From positions 26,633 through 90,632 of the forward strand of contig JAABUB010000003.1 in the NCBI GenBank assembly GCA_011389575.1: DNA of 64,000 nt, given 5' to 3'. Below are positions 45,666 to 55,696 of this stretch, piece after piece (position 1 is the stretch's first letter; the number at the start of each line of letters is the position of its first letter). Below the pieces are notes generated by a model that did no database searches, was not told the origin of the DNA, and worked only from the letters and a program-made list of their open reading frames with translations. The position numbers were made by a program, and so were the translations under genes. Origin of the DNA: Desulfotignum sp. Its GTDB lineage: Bacteria; Desulfobacterota; Desulfobacteria; Desulfobacterales; Desulfobacteraceae.

Positions 45666-46133
45666 ATGAAATCTGTATTATCATGGACGGCTGTGGCTGT
45701 TTTAGCGGTGTTCTTTTTCGGACCTGCCCATACCCAGGCCTGGTTCGGCAGCAAATATACCAAACTGACTCCGGATAAGGGAGTGCTTTTCATTCCGGTA
45801 AAAGATGTTTCCGACGGTCAGGCCCATTATTTTTCTGCCAGATCTGACAAAGGGATTGATGTGAAATTTTTTGTCGTCAAAAGCCGTGACGGGGTGATCC
45901 GGGCGGCTGTGGATGCCTGTGATGTGTGCTACCGGTCAGGCAAAGGCTATGTTCAGGAAGGCAATGTCATGGTGTGTACCAATTGCGGGATGCGGTTTGC
46001 CACAGACCGGATCAATGAGGTCAAGGGCGGCTGCAACCCTGCGCCCCTGAAGCGTATGGTAAAGGATGAGACCCTTGTGATCGCCATGGCAGACATCAAT
46101 GACAATGCCTGGTATTGTGAATTTAAAAAATAA
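45666..46133 (+). CDS. DUF2318-domain exported protein
   Basis: Signal-like N-terminus; VDACDVCYRSGKGYVQEGNVMVCTNCGMRFATDRINEVKGGCNPAPL. Confidence 0.8.
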   Translation: MKSVLSWTAVAVLAVFFFGPAHTQAWFGSKYTKLTPDKGVLFIPVKDVSDGQAHYFSARSDKGIDVKFFVVKSRDGVIRAAVDACDVCYRSGKGYVQEGNVMVCTNCGMRFATDRINEVKGGCNPAPLKRMVKDETLVIAMADINDNAWYCEFKK

Positions 46134-46144
46134 CAGGAGAAAAC

Positions 46145-46588
46145 ATGGCCTGGGATCCTGAAAAATACCGGGAAAAACGGGAACGCGTGCTGGGTATCCA
46201 AAAAAAAGGCATTTCATTCAGTATCATGGCAGCCATTGTATCTGTCACCATTCTTCTGGGACTGGGTGTTGTGACCGTTCCCAATGCGGTTTCCCTTTGG
46301 CAGACCCGGCACCTGGATGATGCCATTTACCGGCTCACAACAGGCCATGCCTGGCCGGATCAGGCCCTGGCCGGTATCCGGAATATGTCCGGGGTCAAAA
46401 AGGTGACAAAAGACCATCACGGAGGCCGGCTGGTGATCACCTTTGACCGCCGCCACACCGGTCCTGAAAAAATGGCGGGCCAGCTCAAGGAACACGGCCT
46501 TTCCTTTGCCCTGCTCAACCGGGTCAACCACCGGCAGCACCGGCAGATCACGGCAGAAGAAAAGGAGGCGGAAGGTGAAGCTTTATAA
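46145..46588 (+). CDS. Membrane-anchored protein with HMA-like C-terminal domain
   Basis: One TM (FSIMAAIVSVTILLGLGVVTVP); DQALAGIRNMSGVKKVTKDHHGGRLVITFDRRHTGPEKMAGQLKEHGLSF. Confidence 0.5.
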   Translation: MAWDPEKYREKRERVLGIQKKGISFSIMAAIVSVTILLGLGVVTVPNAVSLWQTRHLDDAIYRLTTGHAWPDQALAGIRNMSGVKKVTKDHHGGRLVITFDRRHTGPEKMAGQLKEHGLSFALLNRVNHRQHRQITAEEKEAEGEAL

Positions 46589-47732
46589 TATCTGCCTTGG
46601 CAATATCAAGCGCCGCAAGACCCGGATGCTTTTTTTGGCCCTGGGCCTGATCATCGGCATCGGCACAGTGGTCACCCTGTTGTCCATAACGGAATCCATG
46701 GGCCGGGATATTGAAGAACGCCTGGACCAGTTCGGTGCCAATATCGTGATGGCGCCCAGGATGGAGAACCTGTCCCTCAATTATGGCGGCATCGATGTGG
46801 GCGGGGTGAATTATGAGATCAGGGAACTGGACCAGGCATCCCTTTTTCGGATACATACCATTGAAAATGCCAAAAATCTGGGGGTGATCGCCCCCAAGAT
46901 CCTGGGTCCTGTAACCATCATGGACAAAACCGTGCTTCTTATGGGGGTGGTGTTTGAAGAGGAACTGGCCTTGAAACCCTGGTGGCAGAAAACCGGTGCC
47001 TTTCCAGAAGCAGACAACGAACTGCTGCTGGGATCAGCTGCGGCATCCTTGCTGAATGTATCCCCCGGCAGCACCCTGGAAATGAAAGGACACCCATTTC
47101 AGGTGAGCGGGGTTCTGGAGCCCACCGGCGGATCTGAAGACAATGCCGTCATTGCCGGCCTTTCCCCGGCCCAGAAAATTCTGGGAAAACAGGGGAAAAT
47201 ATCTTTGGTGGAAATCTCCGCCTTTTGCAGGGGATGTCCCATTACCGAGCTGACCCTTCAGATTGCGGAAAAATTTCCCAATGCAACAGTGACTGCCATG
47301 AAACAGGCGGTCATGTCCAAGATGCAGTCCATTGAACTGTTCAAATCCTTTTCCCTTGGTGTCTCAGTCCTGGTCATCACCATCGGGGCCCTGCTGGTCA
47401 TGGTGACCATGATGGGATCGGTGAACCAGCGAACCCGGGAGATCGGGGTTTTCAGGGCCATCGGGTTCCGCCAGGGACATGTGATGGAGATTATCCTGTT
47501 GGAGGCGCTGCTGCTGGGAGTTTTCGGCGGTCTGGCCGGGTTTGTCCTGGGCAATGGTGTTGCCCGGATTATCATCCCACTGACACTGGAAGCCGGCCGT
47601 TTTCCCGGAATCGACTGGCAGCTGGGGGGCATCTGCCTGCTCATGTCGGCTGCTTTGAGCCTCCTGGCCAGCCTGTATCCGGCTTTCAAGGCCGCATCTC
47701 TGGACCCTAACCAGGCATTGCGGGTGTTATGA
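46575..47732 (+). CDS. MacB/FtsX-type ABC transporter permease
   Basis: GTG start after GGAGG; RRKTRMLFLALGLIIGIGTVVTLLSI; VNQRTREIGVFRAIGFRQGHVMEIILLEALLLG. Confidence 0.9.
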   Translation: MKLYNICLGNIKRRKTRMLFLALGLIIGIGTVVTLLSITESMGRDIEERLDQFGANIVMAPRMENLSLNYGGIDVGGVNYEIRELDQASLFRIHTIENAKNLGVIAPKILGPVTIMDKTVLLMGVVFEEELALKPWWQKTGAFPEADNELLLGSAAASLLNVSPGSTLEMKGHPFQVSGVLEPTGGSEDNAVIAGLSPAQKILGKQGKISLVEISAFCRGCPITELTLQIAEKFPNATVTAMKQAVMSKMQSIELFKSFSLGVSVLVITIGALLVMVTMMGSVNQRTREIGVFRAIGFRQGHVMEIILLEALLLGVFGGLAGFVLGNGVARIIIPLTLEAGRFPGIDWQLGGICLLMSAALSLLASLYPAFKAASLDPNQALRVL

Positions 47733-48409
47733 TGAAACCGGTTGACCATTTTATACAGGTGCATGACCTTGTAAAAACCTATGCAGACGGCGGCCGGTCA
47801 GTGAGTGCCATTGATCAGGTGAACCTGTCCATTGATGACGGAGAATTTGTCACCATCATGGGCCGGTCCGGTTCCGGCAAAAGCACGCTTTTGTCCATGC
47901 TGGGGGCCCTGATGCGCCCCACCAGCGGAAAGGTGGTGGTGGATTCCATGGATTTGTACAGCCTGGGCAGTGAACAGCGGGCAGATTTCAGAAGTGAATA
48001 TATCGGGTTTATTTTCCAGTCGTTCCAGTTGATTCCCTATCTCACGGTGCTGGAAAATGTGTCCCTGCCCATGGCAGTCACCGGCCTGAAAAAGAAGAAG
48101 ATGGACATGGCCATGGCAGTGATTGACCGGGTGGGACTGGCAGACAAGCATGACCGGCTGCCGGACCGGCTGTCAGGGGGAGAGCAGGAACGGGTGGCAA
48201 TAGCCCGGGCCATTGTCAACCACCCGCCCCTGATCCTGGCGGATGAGCCCACCGGAAATCTGGATACGGACACCGCCGGCCGGATCATGGAACAGCTGGC
48301 ATCGTTGAACCGGGAGGGCCATACCATTGTGGTGGTGACCCACAACCCGGAAATGGAAGCATATGCTTCCCGGAATATCCGGGTCAGGGACGGCAGGGTG
48401 TCAGCTTGA
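47729..48409 (+). CDS. MacB/LolD-type ABC transporter ATP-binding protein
   Basis: TIMGRSGSGKSTLLSMLGALMRPTSG; LSGGEQERVAIARAIVNHPPLILADEPTGNLD. Confidence 0.93.
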   Translation: MMKPVDHFIQVHDLVKTYADGGRSVSAIDQVNLSIDDGEFVTIMGRSGSGKSTLLSMLGALMRPTSGKVVVDSMDLYSLGSEQRADFRSEYIGFIFQSFQLIPYLTVLENVSLPMAVTGLKKKKMDMAMAVIDRVGLADKHDRLPDRLSGGEQERVAIARAIVNHPPLILADEPTGNLDTDTAGRIMEQLASLNREGHTIVVVTHNPEMEAYASRNIRVRDGRVSA

Positions 48410-48547
48410 GACTGGTAGATAGCAGTGTGCTGAAAGCAGATATCTGTTTGTGTGTTATTATATTGATGAGACTGATTGAATCGGTCATCAAGTGAAATTA
48501 ACATTGACAAAACCCGTCCCTGTATATTAAAAGCAACACGCATGCAT

Positions 48548-48740
48548 TGAGGTGCCGGATTCCGTTACTTCAACGGAACTCCGGGTAAAAGGAAAGATGG
48601 TGGAATTCCATCGCATGCCAGCCGTTGCCGTAATCGGGGACAAGGAATGCATTCAGGCCACTCTTCTGTATCCCCCAGAGGGGGAAGGCGCATTCCAAGG
48701 ATGATCCGTGAGTCGGAAAGCCTGCCCTTTGCTGAACCAG
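48548..48740 (+). ncRNA. Cobalamin riboswitch (approximate boundaries)
   Basis: GGTGCCGG...GGGTAAAAGGAAAGATGGTGGAATTCCATCGCATGCC...CAGGCCACTCTTCTG...GTGAGTCGGAAAGCCTGCC, characteristic cobalamin-element blocks in order upstream of 48791. Confidence 0.85.
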
Positions 48741-48790
48741 GGATTTTTGCTGGAATCAAATCCTTCTGAATCTGTATATTCAGGAGGTAT

Positions 48791-49897
48791 ATGATGTCTG
48801 ATCGATTGGATAAACTCTTGGGCGGTTTCATTACCCGTCTGATCCAGAAAAAAGTTCTCACCCGTGAAGAATCCAGACAGGCCTTTTTCCATGTGTTGAA
48901 CAATGAGGTTACCGACATGCATCAGGGTGCCTTTCTGGCTGCATTGACAGCCAAAGGTGAAACCAGTGAGGAGGTGGCCGGGGCATGGGAGTCCGTTTAC
49001 AATCTGGACACCACCAAGGTTGCCATTGATCCATCCCTTGCACTGGTGGAAAACAGCGGCACCGGCATGGATACATTCAAAACATTCAACATCAGCACGG
49101 CGGCATCCATTGTTGCCGCTGCCGGTGGTGTTCCCATGGCCAGGCACGGCGCCAGAGCCATCACCTCGGTCTGCGGCACCGTGGATATGGCCGAAGCATT
49201 GGGAGTGGATGTGGAGTGCACTGCCGATATGGTTGCCAGAAGTATTGAATCATCAAATTTAGGGCTTTTTAACGGCATGAGCCCGCACATTCATCCTAAG
49301 GCGTTAGGACGGATCCTGTCCCGGATCTCTTTCGGCTCCACCTTGAATATTGCGGCCTCCCTTGCCAACCCGGCCCTGCCTTCCATCGGTGTACGCGGGG
49401 TATATGCAAAGGAAATGATCCAGCCTGTGGCGGCCGTGATGAAGGAGATCGGGTATACGCGTGCCCTGGTGGTTCACGGCGGCGTGGACCATTCTGAAAA
49501 AGGGATGGACGAAGCTTCGGTCTGCGGGATGACGTATTGCGCCGGAATTTTTAATGACGATGATATCTCACGGTTTACCATCGATCCGGTCCGTCTGGAT
49601 CTGTCTGCCGGAGATCCTGAGGAACTGGCACCGGAACCGGATATTGAAATAGAGTCCCGACGGTTTGCGAGGCTGCTTGCCAGGGCGGATAACGGTGCCA
49701 GAAAAGATGCAGTGATCCTGAATGCCGGTTTGATCTTCCTTGCAGCCGGAAAAGCCGGCACAGTTGAACAGGGGATCGAAACCGCCTGTCGGCTCCTGGA
49801 AAACGGTGCCGCCTTCAAGGCCCTTGAAAACTGGGTATCAAGTCAGAACCGCTCCCCTGAAAAAGGGTTGAAATCTCTTCACCGGCTGGTGTCATGA
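48791..49897 (+). CDS. Anthranilate phosphoribosyltransferase-like (TrpD/glycosyltransferase family 3) protein
   Basis: VENSGTGMDTFKTFNISTAASIVAAAGGVPMARHGARAITSVCGTVDMAEALGVDVE; FNGMSPHIHPKALGRILSRISFGSTLNIAASLANPA; VVHGGVDHSEKGMDE. Confidence 0.85.
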   Translation: MMSDRLDKLLGGFITRLIQKKVLTREESRQAFFHVLNNEVTDMHQGAFLAALTAKGETSEEVAGAWESVYNLDTTKVAIDPSLALVENSGTGMDTFKTFNISTAASIVAAAGGVPMARHGARAITSVCGTVDMAEALGVDVECTADMVARSIESSNLGLFNGMSPHIHPKALGRILSRISFGSTLNIAASLANPALPSIGVRGVYAKEMIQPVAAVMKEIGYTRALVVHGGVDHSEKGMDEASVCGMTYCAGIFNDDDISRFTIDPVRLDLSAGDPEELAPEPDIEIESRRFARLLARADNGARKDAVILNAGLIFLAAGKAGTVEQGIETACRLLENGAAFKALENWVSSQNRSPEKGLKSLHRLVS

Positions 49898-49898
49898 A

Positions 49899-50129
49899 AT
49901 GGAACTTCTGATAATAAAATCCGGAAGCGACTATATCAGGGTAAAAGAAAACAGTTTTGTTTTCTGCGGCCTGGACAAGGCCAGCGTATTTCCCGTAGAT
50001 ATGGCGGATGAAGTCAGGTCACTCAGGAAAAGGCTCGAATCAGAAGGGGCCGGGCTTGTCTGCATCAAAAAACTGGTTCTTACCGAACAGGAGTGGATGT
50101 CTGATGAAAATAGTTCTGAACCGGCTTAA
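49899..50129 (+). CDS. Small protein of unknown function in the riboswitch operon
   Basis: Starts 2 nt after the TrpD-like stop and overlaps the next gene by 26 nt; MELLIIKSGSDYIRVKENSFVFCGLDKASVFPVDMADEVRSLRKRLES. Confidence 0.65.
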   Translation: MELLIIKSGSDYIRVKENSFVFCGLDKASVFPVDMADEVRSLRKRLESEGAGLVCIKKLVLTEQEWMSDENSSEPA

Positions 50130-51165
50130 AACCCTTGAAATTGTAGAACAGGAGCCCCTTATTCCGGATATCCCGGACGGCTCTGTCAGGGTGGAGGTGC
50201 TGTGCTGTGCCGTATGCCGGACTGATGCAAAAATGTGGGAACAGGGCCACCGGGACCTGATCCTGCCACGAATTCCGGGACATGAGATGGTGGTCAGGGA
50301 TACGGATGGGAACCGTTTTATGGTGTGGCCGGGAACAAACTGCACCACCTGCAGCTATTGTCGGCAGGGATTGGAAAATCTGTGTGAAAAGATGAAAATC
50401 ATCGGATTTCACCACGACGGCGGGTTTGCTTCACATGTTGTTGTTCCTTCCCGGAACCTGATTCCGCTGTCTGCCGGTCTGGACAATCATACCGCCTGTT
50501 TTGGAGAACCGGTCGGCTGTATTATCAATGCCTTTGAAAAAATCGAATATAAAAAAAAAAGCCGGCTCCTTATTTACGGAGGCGGTACCATGGGGCTTGC
50601 TGCAGCCCTGTATGCCAAAAGCATCGGTCTGCAACCCCTGGTGATCGAAAAAAGGGAATCCAAGATTCATCACGTCAGGGCTTTTCTGGATGCAGCAGGC
50701 ATTTGCTGTGAAAAAGACACCCTTGACAATGAATTTGACCTAATAATCAATGCCTGCCCTGATGTCATCGCTTTCTGCCAGGCTGTATCAAAAGTGGCCA
50801 GGGCCGGCTGGATTTGCTTTTTCAGCGGAATTGCCAAAAACGAAACCATTGACACCAACCTGGTAAATCTTATCCACTACAAGGAAGCAAAACTCGCCGG
50901 TGCCTACGGCATGACCCGGACACATATGGAAAAAGCCATACCGTTCATTACCTCTCACCAGTCATATCTCAAATTACTGATACAGGACATTGTTCCGCCC
51001 CACAGGCTTCCAGCCCTGATGCCAAAGGTCCTGTCCGGCAGCAATCTCAAGTATATCCTGGATTTCACCCTTGCTTTTCGGGACTCCTCAATCGAAATAT
51101 CACATCAGGCCCCTGTTCAGCCCATGGGGATCGATACTGCCGCAGGCTGTTTTACTGTAGATTGA
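50104..51165 (+). CDS. Zinc-dependent medium-chain dehydrogenase (MDR family)
   Basis: EVLCCAVCRTDAKMWEQGHRD, RIPGHEMV, CTTCSYCRQGLENLCEKMKIIGFHHDGGFASHVVVP, LLIYGGGTMGLAAALYAKS; ATG at 50104. Confidence 0.87.
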   Translation: MKIVLNRLKTLEIVEQEPLIPDIPDGSVRVEVLCCAVCRTDAKMWEQGHRDLILPRIPGHEMVVRDTDGNRFMVWPGTNCTTCSYCRQGLENLCEKMKIIGFHHDGGFASHVVVPSRNLIPLSAGLDNHTACFGEPVGCIINAFEKIEYKKKSRLLIYGGGTMGLAAALYAKSIGLQPLVIEKRESKIHHVRAFLDAAGICCEKDTLDNEFDLIINACPDVIAFCQAVSKVARAGWICFFSGIAKNETIDTNLVNLIHYKEAKLAGAYGMTRTHMEKAIPFITSHQSYLKLLIQDIVPPHRLPALMPKVLSGSNLKYILDFTLAFRDSSIEISHQAPVQPMGIDTAAGCFTVD

Positions 51166-51308: not shown

Positions 51309-52019
51309 TCACATTTTCCTGCGCTTAAAAAAATCCCGCACAAAGGCAATATGGGTGTTCATGGACGTATAGGCAGTGTCCGGATCACGGGATGTGATGG
51401 CATCCAGGATGGCCCGGTGCTGGGTCAGTATTTTTTGGATATTGTTCGGGTCCTCATACAGACTGGCCAGGTTCTCCCGGATGCCATGGAACAGATAGTC
51501 ATAAAAATTGCGCATGATCAGGATGTGCAGCGGATTTTTGGCTGCATAGGCAATGGCCATGTGAAAGCTGGTGTCCGCTTCGGTGCCCAGGCGCCCGGAT
51601 TTCACCTCATGCTGCATTTCATCTATGCTCTGGGCCATGGCGGTGATATCGGTTTCATCCGCCCGCTGGGCAGCCAGGGAGGCAGCATTGCATTCCAGGC
51701 CCATCCGTACCTCAAGCAGGTCTACAAGAGAGGCGGACTGGGCTTCCATGGCCTTTGCCAAAGGGTTTTCCTGCACCGCTTCCATGGGTTTTACAAAGGT
51801 GCCCTGCCCCTGCTTCTGGGTAATCAGTCCCATGGTGACCAGCCGCTGGATGGCATCCCTGATGGTGGTGCGGGAGACATTCATGGCCTGGGCCAGCTCC
51901 CGCTCGGTCATCAGTTTTTCTCCAGGCTTGAGCTTGCCCCTGTAAATGAGTTCCCGGATCTGATCCAGGACCTGATCTGAGATGCGCTTGGGCTTTATGG
52001 GCTTTATGGGTATGGTCAT
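51309..52019 (-). CDS. GntR-family regulator, FadR subfamily
   Basis: VLDQIRELIYRGKLKPGEKLMTERELAQAMNVSRTTIRDAIQRLVTMGLITQKQGQGTFV; FCD-type C-terminus. Confidence 0.92.
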   Translation of the reverse strand: MTIPIKPIKPKRISDQVLDQIRELIYRGKLKPGEKLMTERELAQAMNVSRTTIRDAIQRLVTMGLITQKQGQGTFVKPMEAVQENPLAKAMEAQSASLVDLLEVRMGLECNAASLAAQRADETDITAMAQSIDEMQHEVKSGRLGTEADTSFHMAIAYAAKNPLHILIMRNFYDYLFHGIRENLASLYEDPNNIQKILTQHRAILDAITSRDPDTAYTSMNTHIAFVRDFFKRRKM

Positions 52020-52112
52020 AATCCTATGTTACATGCCGGTTTTATGGTCAAAATTCAAACCATGGATTATTTATTATTCCAGTTATTTTATCAAGGGTTT
52101 TTTAATCAAATC

Positions 52113-52949
52113 CTAATAGGTCAATACCATTCCGCCGTCAAACAGAAGATCCCCGCCCACCAGGTAATGTGAAAACCGGGAGAATCCAAATATAAACAGA
52201 TTTGCCACCTCCACCGGAGACATCATCTCCTTGACCCGGGAGGTACCCATCATAACATTCGAGACCACCTGTTCGGGTGTGATTCCCCGCTGTTCGGCCT
52301 GGGCCGCCACCTGGTTCAATGCAAGGGGGGTTTTGACAAATCCGGAGCTGATGGTAAAAGAGCGGATCATGCCTTCCCCTTCTGCGGAGATGGACTGGCT
52401 CAGGGCCCGGAGCCCGAATTTGGTGATGTTGTAAACCGGTTTGTTTTTGGTGCAGATGTGGGCATGGACCGATGCCATGTTGGCAACGGCCCCGGCGCCT
52501 GCCTGTTTCATATGGGGTATCACCAGCTGGGACAGAAAAAAAGGGGCCCTGAGCATGATTTTCTGCATCAGGTCATAGGTTTCCATGGGGAAATTTTCCA
52601 CCGCATCGATGTGCTGGATGCCGGCGATGTTGGCCAGGTATCTGATCTGTCCCAGGCCGGCTGCCGTTTCCACGGCAGATCTCACCTGCGCATCATCGGT
52701 CAGGTCGGTTTTGATGAAGGTCATATTTGCCCCGCCCAAAGCCTGTGCCATTTCAACGGTTTTTTCACCTTCTGTCTCATTAATATCCAGGCCTGTCACG
52801 GTTACCCCGTTGACAGCTGCTGCAATGGAAACAGCCCGTCCGATGCCGGTACCGCAGCCGCTCACAACACAGACATTTTGTTTGCAGAAATCATCATCGT
52901 CCAGTATCAGTATATCTTTTTTGGTGATTTCAGGTTCTTTGATTTCCAT
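52113..52949 (-). CDS. Short-chain dehydrogenase/reductase
   Basis: VCVVSGCGTGIGRAVSIAAAVNGVTVTGLDIN; NIAGIQHIDAV; NKPVYNITKFGLRALSQSIS. Confidence 0.88.
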   Translation of the reverse strand: MEIKEPEITKKDILILDDDDFCKQNVCVVSGCGTGIGRAVSIAAAVNGVTVTGLDINETEGEKTVEMAQALGGANMTFIKTDLTDDAQVRSAVETAAGLGQIRYLANIAGIQHIDAVENFPMETYDLMQKIMLRAPFFLSQLVIPHMKQAGAGAVANMASVHAHICTKNKPVYNITKFGLRALSQSISAEGEGMIRSFTISSGFVKTPLALNQVAAQAEQRGITPEQVVSNVMMGTSRVKEMMSPVEVANLFIFGFSRFSHYLVGGDLLFDGGMVLTY

Positions 52950-52977
52950 GGTGTTCTCCTTTCAGGTTGACAAACTT

Positions 52978-54300
52978 TTATGGGGTGTTTTTTTTAAGGC
53001 GAGATGCGTAAATTTCCATGGGATGCCGGACCGTTATGGATGATCCGGCCTTTCCCAGCATATCTGAGATCTGCATCATACAAGCCGGACACCCGGTGGA
53101 TACGGTTGTGCAGCCGGTATTTTCGATATTTTCCTCCTTGATTTTCCCAATGGAGCTGGACAGGTCATAATGGTAGATATTGAAACTGCCGCCCATGCCG
53201 CAGCATTTATCAGAACCGGCCATTTCGTTCAATTGACAGCCGGCCGCGGAGATAACCTGCCGGGGCTGATCTGCCACACCCAAAGACTTTTTCAGATGGC
53301 AGGGATCGTGGTAGGTCACGATGTCTGGTCCCTGATCAGATCCTGCTGGATCTGAAAAATTTTTCAGCGGATCAATTCCCACCCGGTCCACCAGGAACTG
53401 GTTGATGTCCATGGTTTTTTCAGCCAGGGCATTCAGTTTTTGCTGTATATCATCGGACGGGTTTTTGTAGACAGTCGGCCACAGTTTTTTAATGGTGGAG
53501 GTACAGGTGGCACAGGCCGTCACCAGCACATCAAATGGTTCTTTTTCAAACAGGGCCAGGTTATGGTCCACCAGGTGGGTAAAGCTGTCTCTGTCGCCGG
53601 ATGCCAGGGCGGGAATACCGCAGCATCCCTGGCCGGGGGGGATAACCACCCCCACCTGGTGATGGGACAGGACTTTCAGGGATGCTTTGGCCACATTGGG
53701 AAAAATTTTGTCTATCAGGCAACCGGTGAAGAAAGCGGCCCGAAGCCCGGACCCGGTGCTTGTGAAGCCTTTTTTCGGCAGGGTTTTGTGAAACGGGGTG
53801 GTGCTCAGGGGCATGAAATGCCTGTTGGCCAGCAGCGGAGAGATCAGACGGGCACAGGACGTGCCCTGGGCATCGGCAGAAGGTTTTGTGAAAAGGTCCT
53901 GGAAACGGCCGGCCCATTCCACCAGAGCGTCGAACCGGCCGGGATTGGCCAGCAGCTGCCTGAAGATCAGTTTTTTGGCAGGTGACAGGCCTTTGTATTC
54001 CGCCAGGATGGCCCGGGCCTTGATGAATATTTCCACCACATTGACACCGGAAGGGCAGTTGGCGGCACAGGACCCGCAGAGCAGGCAACGGTTCAGCCGT
54101 TCATTCACCCCGTCGGGATCCGTGAAAATATTATCCATCAGCCCGGTGAGCAGGGCCAGTTTGCCCCGTGCCACATCTGCTTCTTTGCGGGTTTGCTCAA
54201 ACAGGGGGCAGACCGACTGGCACATGCCGCAGCGAATGCAGGTCACCAGTTGTTCTTCCAGCTCTTTTACCAGGTTTGCCAGTTCTTTCATGCCTGTCAT
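52978..54300 (-). CDS. (Fe-S)-binding subunit, glycolate/D-lactate oxidase type (GlcF-like)
   Basis: CIRCGMCQSVCPLFEQTRKE, CLLCGSCAANCPSGVN; CCG repeats CCGIPALASGDRD and KCCGMGGSFN. Confidence 0.88.
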   Translation of the reverse strand: MTGMKELANLVKELEEQLVTCIRCGMCQSVCPLFEQTRKEADVARGKLALLTGLMDNIFTDPDGVNERLNRCLLCGSCAANCPSGVNVVEIFIKARAILAEYKGLSPAKKLIFRQLLANPGRFDALVEWAGRFQDLFTKPSADAQGTSCARLISPLLANRHFMPLSTTPFHKTLPKKGFTSTGSGLRAAFFTGCLIDKIFPNVAKASLKVLSHHQVGVVIPPGQGCCGIPALASGDRDSFTHLVDHNLALFEKEPFDVLVTACATCTSTIKKLWPTVYKNPSDDIQQKLNALAEKTMDINQFLVDRVGIDPLKNFSDPAGSDQGPDIVTYHDPCHLKKSLGVADQPRQVISAAGCQLNEMAGSDKCCGMGGSFNIYHYDLSSSIGKIKEENIENTGCTTVSTGCPACMMQISDMLGKAGSSITVRHPMEIYASRLKKNTP

Positions 54301-54307
54301 TACTAGG

Positions 54308-55696
54308 TTATACTCCTGTTATTTTGCCGGGATTCAAGATGTTGCGGGGGTCCAGGGCTGCCCGCAGTTGCCTGGAAAACAAGATGGAGGAATACCCGGC
54401 TTCCTTTTCCAGAAAAGGGGCCTTGGCAATGCCGGTGCCGTGTTCTCCGGAAAGGGTCCCCCCCATGGCCAGGGCCGTGTCAAAGATCTCTTCAATGGCC
54501 TGTTCCACCCGGTGAAATTCTTCCTTGTTTCTGCGGTCTGTGAGAATAGTGGGATGCAGGTTGCCGTCCCCGGCATGGCCGAAGGTGCCGATATCGATTT
54601 TGTATTTTTTCCCGATCTCCTGGAGGGCCTGTACCATGTCCGGAATCCTGCTTCGGGGAACCGTGGCATCCTCCAGCACCAGGGTGGGTTTGAGCTGGGC
54701 CAGGGCAGACAAAGCAGCTCTTCTGGCTGCCCAGATCCTGTCCCGCTGGGCATCATTTTTGGCCTGGTCAATGGTCCGAGCGCCCATTTTGCGGCACAGA
54801 TCCTTGACCTGTTCTGCTTCCTCAGCAACCACAGCCGGGTGTCCGTCCACCTCAATGAGCAGCAGGGCTGCTGCATCTTTGGGAAGTCCGGCCTTTGAAA
54901 AGTCTTCCACCGCCCGGATAGTGAAGTTGTCCAGGATTTCCAGGGTGGCCGGCAGAATGCGTGCGGAAATGATACCGGCCACGGTTTCCGATGCCTGTTC
55001 AATGGTATCATACACCGCCACCATGGCCTGCCTGGCCTTTGGGGCGGGGATGAGTTTGAGAATCACCTGGTCCAGGACCCCAAGGGTGCCTTCAGATCCC
55101 ACCATCAGTCCGGTAATATTATATCCGGTGGCGCACTTCACGGTCCTGGAACCGGTTTTGATATAATTGCCCTGGCAGTCAAAAAACTGCAGCCCCATGA
55201 CATAATCCTTGGTCACCCCGTATTTGAGTCCCCGCAACCCCCCGGCATTTTCCGCCACATTTCCGCCGATGGTGGAAACCGCCATGCTGCCCGGATCCGG
55301 CGGATAGAACAGTCCCAGCTTTTCCACTTCAGCTGCCAGGGTTGCCGTCACAACCCCTGGTTCCACCACAGCATACATGTCAGCCGCATTGATTTCAATG
55401 ATGCGGTTCATCCGGCCGGTGAGCACCACAATGCCGGAGGTCCGGGGAATGGTGCCGCCGGACAGATTGGTGCCTGATCCCCTTACCGTTATGGGGATAT
55501 GGTTTTCATGACACAGGGCGATGATTTCGCCAAGCTGGGTGGTGTTTTCGGGAATAACGGCTGCCCCGGGCATAACCGGGTCCAGCACTGCGGCATCATA
55601 GGAATAGGTGAACATGTCTTCTTTCTGCGTCAGCAGATGTTTGGGCCCCACAATTTTCTGGAGCGCCTCCTGGATGGACCGGGGGATCATAGGCAC
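54308..55696 (-). CDS. FAD-linked oxidase, glycolate/D-lactate dehydrogenase type (GlcD-like)
   Basis: VRGSGTNLSGGTIPRTSGIVVLTGRMNRI, YPPDPGSMAVSTIGGNVAENAGGLRGLKYGVTKDYV, GHAGDGNLHPTI, LSGEHGTG. Confidence 0.92.
   Translation of the reverse strand: MPMIPRSIQEALQKIVGPKHLLTQKEDMFTYSYDAAVLDPVMPGAAVIPENTTQLGEIIALCHENHIPITVRGSGTNLSGGTIPRTSGIVVLTGRMNRIIEINAADMYAVVEPGVVTATLAAEVEKLGLFYPPDPGSMAVSTIGGNVAENAGGLRGLKYGVTKDYVMGLQFFDCQGNYIKTGSRTVKCATGYNITGLMVGSEGTLGVLDQVILKLIPAPKARQAMVAVYDTIEQASETVAGIISARILPATLEILDNFTIRAVEDFSKAGLPKDAAALLLIEVDGHPAVVAEEAEQVKDLCRKMGARTIDQAKNDAQRDRIWAARRAALSALAQLKPTLVLEDATVPRSRIPDMVQALQEIGKKYKIDIGTFGHAGDGNLHPTILTDRRNKEEFHRVEQAIEEIFDTALAMGGTLSGEHGTGIAKAPFLEKEAGYSSILFSRQLRAALDPRNILNPGKITGV

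Follow-up and report, generated by a model that had tools for sequence, protein, structure and literature searches.

CobT is the base-activating enzyme of cobamide synthesis, and the lower ligand of a cobamide determines which organisms can use it. BluB is a supplier of the base for CobT; it requires O2 and FMN, and in its reaction the ribityl C1' becomes ring C2. Anaerobic supply of the base before CobT is known from the cobamide-linked BzaABCDE/BzaF systems, which have a radical-SAM ThiC-like enzyme. The phenol-activating pair ArsAB has CobT homologues in its operon. In an open-access library, which leaves out most papers behind subscription, we found no account of a role for a TrpD-like enzyme in making cobamides, nor of an MDR dehydrogenase fused with CobT; this absence does not prove novelty. 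The figure legend of a Chlorobium paper names trpD and a dehydrogenase alongside cobalamin genes and makes no comment on them (PMC8620254).

We analyzed a window of 64,000 nucleotides from Desulfotignum sp., by which we mean the whole stretch of DNA. In this window a cobalamin riboswitch precedes three genes, encoding a TrpD-like phosphoribosyltransferase, a small protein of 76 amino acids and an MDR dehydrogenase; we call them the trio. Their coordinates are listed in Table 1. Compared with BzaABCDE/BzaF, the trio presumably holds the same place in the pathway, but its enzymes are a transferase of the PRPP type and a dehydrogenase of the NAD type, and it has no radical-SAM ThiC-like enzyme. 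Like BluB it presumably supplies a base for CobT, but presumably without a need for oxygen.

Table 1. Features of the riboswitch-controlled trio in the window
Feature	Positions	Strand	Remarks
Cobalamin riboswitch aptamer RF00174	48535-48743	+	Rfam 67.4 bits, E 1.7e-14, model positions 1-189
Expression platform, predicted 10-bp hairpin	48762-48787	+	pairs the whole Shine-Dalgarno sequence AGGAGG (48782-48787); z -2.8
TrpD-like phosphoribosyltransferase ORF	48791-49897	+	alternative start 48794; non-canonical clade, GTGMDxxKT
76-aa conserved small protein ORF	49899-50129	+	homologue in 66 of the best 80 loci (of 231)
Zinc-, NAD-type MDR dehydrogenase ORF	50104-51165	+	corresponds to the N-terminal part of the MDR-CobT fusion of relatives
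End of homology with the intact L078 fusion	51146-51165	+	CobT domain missing; short unrelated tail after

The earlier note on this DNA had read a cobalamin element at 48548-48740. This reading was confirmed by the Rfam scan, in which RF00174 matched over its full length with a score above the gathering score of 31.5 bits, as the sole Rfam match in the 64-kb window. The note had also pointed to a promoter-like TTGACA box at 48504. Our scan found no acceptable sigma-70-type partner for this box, that is, no consensus pair, and a promoter here is therefore unsupported. As to the packing of the genes, the 26-nt overlap of the second and third genes stood as described, while the gap after the first gene is 1 nt (49898) and not 2 nt. 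By the reading of ORFs only, the riboswitch is preceded on the same strand (45666-48409) by genes for a Cys-rich membrane-type protein and for an ABC permease and ATPase, and the opposite strand at 51309-55696 carries genes for a GntR-family-like regulator and an SDR-like dehydrogenase, as well as for two kinds of subunit, iron-sulfur and FAD, that resemble those of glycolate/lactate oxidase.

Between the aptamer and the start codon, the sequence CCUUCUGAAU-cuguat-AUUCAGGAGG is predicted to form a hairpin. An equivalent hairpin over the Shine-Dalgarno sequence was found in the loci L020-L024, L028-L030, L032, L037, L053, L057 and L078, and in L057 both sides of the stem are altered yet still paired. 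Since the hairpin pairs the whole Shine-Dalgarno sequence and is kept in close relatives, it is likely that the riboswitch acts at the level of translation. The predicted hiding of the Shine-Dalgarno sequence is consistent with control of expression by the ligand.

In order to find related loci, we scanned genomes with three TrpD-like query proteins. Of the 231 relatives obtained, we used the best 80 loci together with their flanking sequence. These best 80 of the 231 loci came from Desulfobacterales, Desulfobulbales, Firmicutes, Spirochaetota, Bacteroidota and Fermentibacterota, and the trio was conserved in at least five phyla. The Firmicutes possessing it were Desulfosporosinus, Pelotomaculum, Dethiobacter, Formimonas and Alkalibacter. 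The gene order was TrpD-small-MDR in Desulfobacterota and Bacteroidota, and MDR-TrpD-small in Firmicutes. A cobalamin riboswitch was located directly upstream on the same strand in 35 of the 44 loci scanned in Desulfobacterota and Firmicutes (17/20, 10/10, 5/7 and 3/7 by batch). These loci are related to one another, and the counts are therefore not independent events; still, the linkage extends over several phyla and is seen with both orders of the genes. The earlier note had named a lack of conserved linkage as grounds for giving up its reading, and a lack of any covariance hit likewise; neither was the case. The distribution is patchy, with the trio in 10 of 297 Desulfobacterota and in 6 of 83 genomes of the class of Desulfosporosinus. 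The closest relative of the window locus at the DNA level was L078, from a Desulfotignum MAG (93%), a similarity that by itself points to a probable source in the Desulfobacteraceae near Desulfotignum.

The TrpD-like protein belongs to the TrpD fold family (TIGR01245; PF02885 and PF00591) and resembles TrpD in its length and its PRPP/Mg motifs. On TIGR01245, with its cut-off at 199 bits, the window protein scored 235.7 bits and the TrpD-like group as a whole 211-286 bits, and the name TrpD will therefore probably be given to them by automatic pipelines. Canonical TrpDs scored 388-443 bits, save one 237-position match of 280 bits (genome G312). The PRPP/Mg residues (GTGxD, NIST and the DE pair) were kept in all of the 80 proteins from the best 80 of 231 loci. 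In the same 80 proteins, the fourth Gly of GTGGD was always replaced with Met (GTGMD), the equivalent of Arg-193 of Mtb TrpD was always Gly, and the equivalent of Asn-138 was always Ala or Ser. These two residues of Mtb TrpD bind the carboxylate of anthranilate (PMC9835598). In a maximum-likelihood tree, the TrpD-like proteins and their deep relatives formed a single clade to the exclusion of 20 canonical TrpDs (support 100/100, stem length 1.31).

The score above the cut-off would fit a normal tryptophan-pathway anthranilate phosphoribosyltransferase standing behind a riboswitch by chance. We think this hardly credible, because the protein forms a separate clade and has lost the residues for anthranilate, and because a canonical TrpD is encoded elsewhere both in the window's own genome (contig C60, 397 bits) and in 19/19 trio genomes tested. 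Activity only with anthranilate, which the earlier note had listed as a possible outcome against its reading, is made unlikely by the loss of both carboxylate-binding residues. The gene also lies in a cobamide operon and not in a trp operon.

The MDR protein has the catalytic Cys-His-Glu zinc ligands, four structural Cys residues and the GxGxxG motif, all of which varied little or not at all among 70 family members. The second Rossmann strand is followed by Glu, and an acidic residue at this position is typical of NAD-linked enzymes. The window protein matched ADH_N above its cut-off (55 bits). Thus the protein shares zinc ligands, GxGxxG and the NAD-type acidic residue with RspB-, Tdh- and GatD-like members of the MDR family, but it lies below the cut-offs of all equivalogs and forms its own cobamide-linked group. 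Assignment of its function by the nearest family was tried and gave only generic dehydrogenases. For the 76-aa protein, the AF2 model (pLDDT 91) consists of strands and one helix; a search of solved structures gave no match, and a fold search with the model gave none at E <= 0.001. Its match to DUF2584 (PF10763) scored 17.7 bits, which is less than the gathering threshold of 25.

In 51 of the best 80 of 231 loci, the MDR protein was fused in frame to CobT. The fused domain of L078 scored 421 bits on TIGR03160 (cut-off 319). The motifs GEMGxxN, GxGxG...K and LGEGTG, which hold the catalytic residues of CobT, were kept in 50-51 of the 51 fusions. In a quick tree the fused CobTs clustered separately from the stand-alone ones encoded in the same genomes, which is what a single origin of the fusion would produce. 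CobT was present in all 20 trio genomes tested, and the module usually brings its own; in G298, G299 and G312 the fused CobT was the only one. CobS was present in the same number of genomes (20/20), including these three.

The window differs from this arrangement. Its MDR aligns with that of L078 up to 51146, a position within the linker, and the domain search detected no DBI_PRT (CobT) domain in the trio; the gene is, as judged from the alignment, a truncated remnant of an MDR-CobT fusion. An MDR without CobT was also found in L020, L051, L057 and L064. The window is related more closely to L078, where the fusion is intact, than to L020, and its loss of CobT and that of L020 therefore look like independent events.

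The earlier note had suggested that the TrpD-like enzyme may take a CobT-like role, and had raised the question whether genomes with the trio lack cobT. A PRPP-type phosphoribosyltransferase within a cobamide operon would suit a replacement of CobT as the base-activating enzyme. However, CobT occurs in every one of the 20 trio genomes, is often fused to the partner MDR and keeps its catalytic motifs in the fusions, and the TrpD-like protein itself is not a CobT. We therefore consider such a replacement very unlikely, and neither a CobT-like role nor a lack of cobT was supported.

The linkage and fusion to CobT, together with the intact PRPP site, are also what would be seen if the TrpD-like enzyme supplied the phosphoribosyl donor of CobT (for example by re-forming NaMN from PRPP and the nicotinate set free, or as an alternative donor), with the MDR protein in an ancillary part. 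The lost Arg and Asn argue against a carboxylated acceptor such as nicotinate. NaMN is moreover an ordinary intermediate of the NAD pathway, for which a special supply is not expected, and the MDR protein would be left unexplained. Taken comprehensively, a donor supply seems unlikely to us.

The deep relatives, obtained by a profile search of other Desulfobacterota, mostly stand among cobamide genes. NCBIfam was used to check the majority of the neighbor names; for the CbiJ-like gene in L174, as for trpC/trpF in L171, the names come from reading of the sequence only. The order was MDR-TrpD-CobT in L170, trp operon-MDR-TrpD-CobT-CobS in L171, and MDR-TrpD-CobT-CobS-CobD-CbiB in L172 and L173, with BtuR and CobU close by. 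In L174, BtuF and a CbiS/CbiZ-like gene are followed by TrpD-MDR and then by CbiE and a CbiJ-like gene. The locus L085 of Salinivirgaceae reads cobI-cbiF-cbiG-cobJ-cobK-btuR-[trio-CobT]-cobT-cobQ. For L175, the deepest relative, no cobamide neighbor was visible. From these neighborhoods we conclude that the module belongs to cobamide synthesis, at the nucleotide-loop step. In L171 (G070 C235, 2200-10697) the trp operon (trpD, trpC, trpF, trpB and trpA) precedes the module on the same strand, and this adjacency may be chance or may be a hint about the substrate.

Some cobalamin riboswitches control B12-independent pathways or isozymes. The genes metE and nrdD have been named as examples (PMC8620254), and the earlier note had kept such a backup, switched on when cobamide is scarce, as its alternative. 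But the trio sits with cobamide-synthesis genes and is fused to CobT, and the operons showed no counterpart that depends on cobamide. This alternative was thus not supported, and there is very little chance that it is right. In contrast, the conserved trio, the riboswitches in several phyla, the fusion or adjacency to CobT and the nucleotide-loop neighbors bear out the link to the lower ligand that the note had drawn, and we hold it highly probable that the trio belongs to the cobamide lower-ligand pathway.

We then compared the sources of the base in the trio genomes. BluB (TIGR02476) above the cut-off was detected in 0/21 genomes, and 7 of 20 trio genomes showed no ThiC/Bza-family protein. 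In Alkalispirochaeta alkalica DSM 8900, whose sole CobT is the fused one, neither BluB nor a protein of the ThiC family was found. On the other hand, BzaF-like proteins adjoin the stand-alone cobT, not the fusion, in three Desulfobacterota genomes, G297 (contig C2), G300 (C37) and G308 (C1); these proteins form a clade apart from ThiC, and no NCBIfam BzaF model matched them. Desulfosporosinus lacus has the trio plus a BzaB-type protein (730 bits; cut-off 700). The idea that the trio strictly excludes Bza genes was therefore rejected, since several genomes carry both, and the module is not simply a replacement. The trio gives the impression of an additional module that runs in parallel and is equipped with a CobT of its own, and in some genomes it is the sole candidate source of the base.

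The coexistence with Bza genes, and the place of the deep relative L174 among uptake and remodeling genes (BtuF and CbiS/CbiZ-like), would also agree with a module for the salvage or modification of a base or alpha-ribotide that is already there (purine or benzimidazole), or for cobamide remodeling. Uptake and remodeling genes are missing from most loci, however, and a source of the base would still be required in those trio genomes that lack both bza and BluB. We regard this explanation as rather improbable.

The window's assembly comprises 163 contigs that total 3.56 Mb, with a completeness of about 83%, and contains six cobalamin riboswitches including that of the window. One on contig C10 precedes a stand-alone cobT, one on C86 precedes genes for a BtuC-like permease, an ATPase and a substrate-binding protein and then cbiL, and one on C29 precedes a TonB-receptor-like gene. 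On C105 (L011, 7480-8766), a riboswitch of 113 bits is followed by a periplasmic substrate-binding-like protein and then by a SelD-like gene. The sixth, on C97 (L014, 6843-7822), precedes a decayed second copy of the trio. This relic is one frame of 247 amino acids: a deletion within TrpD, running from one GMD motif to another, has brought its N-terminus together with its C-terminal part, and an MDR fragment comes after it. In this assembly of only about 83% completeness, we found no ThiC/Bza-family protein, no BluB over the cut-off and no CobS. Because the CobT part has been lost and a second copy has decayed, the local copy may be on its way out; the stand-alone CobT on C10 may serve in place of the lost domain.

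As a whole, we somewhat favor the explanation that the trio is a cobamide-repressed accessory module of nucleotide-loop synthesis, which, without oxygen, would produce or prepare the lower-ligand base that CobT activates. The TrpD-like enzyme would transfer the phosphoribosyl group of PRPP to an acceptor, aromatic or heterocyclic, that has no carboxylate of the anthranilate type, and the NAD-linked MDR protein would oxidize or reduce the product; the fusion and the gene order suggest this order of action, with CobT last. The resulting base would pass to CobT in cis in the fusion, and in trans here, via the stand-alone CobT on C10. The 76-aa protein may be a subunit of a complex or a chaperone. 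When cobamide is ample, the riboswitch would leave the Shine-Dalgarno sequence hidden in the hairpin and the module would be off. Judged from sequence alone, making a base, modifying one and supplying a phosphoribosyl donor would each fit. Points that speak against this explanation are the patchy distribution, the coexistence with Bza genes, the decay of the local copies, the trp operon beside L171 and the want of a cobamide neighbor in L175.

For the accessory base-supply module we can also picture a more specific chemistry, though we would give it only a small chance: the module would be a new way of making a lower ligand of the benzimidazole type without oxygen, in which ribose C1' would become ring C2. 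The product would perhaps be 5-methylbenzimidazole, to which the older literature assigns the place of the lower ligand in some sulfate reducers. The TrpD-like enzyme would place phosphoribose on an aromatic ortho-diamine and the ring would close on ribose C1'; the MDR protein would oxidize the closed ring, the sugar tail would be lost, and the fused CobT would activate the benzimidazole thus formed. If true, this route would be a redox-shifted counterpart of BluB.

These findings also bear on the reading of genomes. In L085 (11232-14340), the MDR-CobT fusion is directly followed by a CobT gene. Tandem cobT genes have been used as the rule to call arsAB (PMC6461909), and by this rule the pair in L085 could be miscalled arsAB, that is, phenolyl-cobamide synthesis (PMC6461909). 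Like ArsAB, the trio loci have CobT homologues in the operon, but there is only one CobT per trio module. Automatic annotation, for its part, likely labels the TrpD-like member of the module a tryptophan enzyme. The ligand structure has been predictable for only 58% of predicted cobamide producers (PMC6461909), and for many anaerobes the source of the lower ligand cannot be read from the genome. The trio module offers a marker for the supply of the lower ligand, together with a small number of candidate enzymes.
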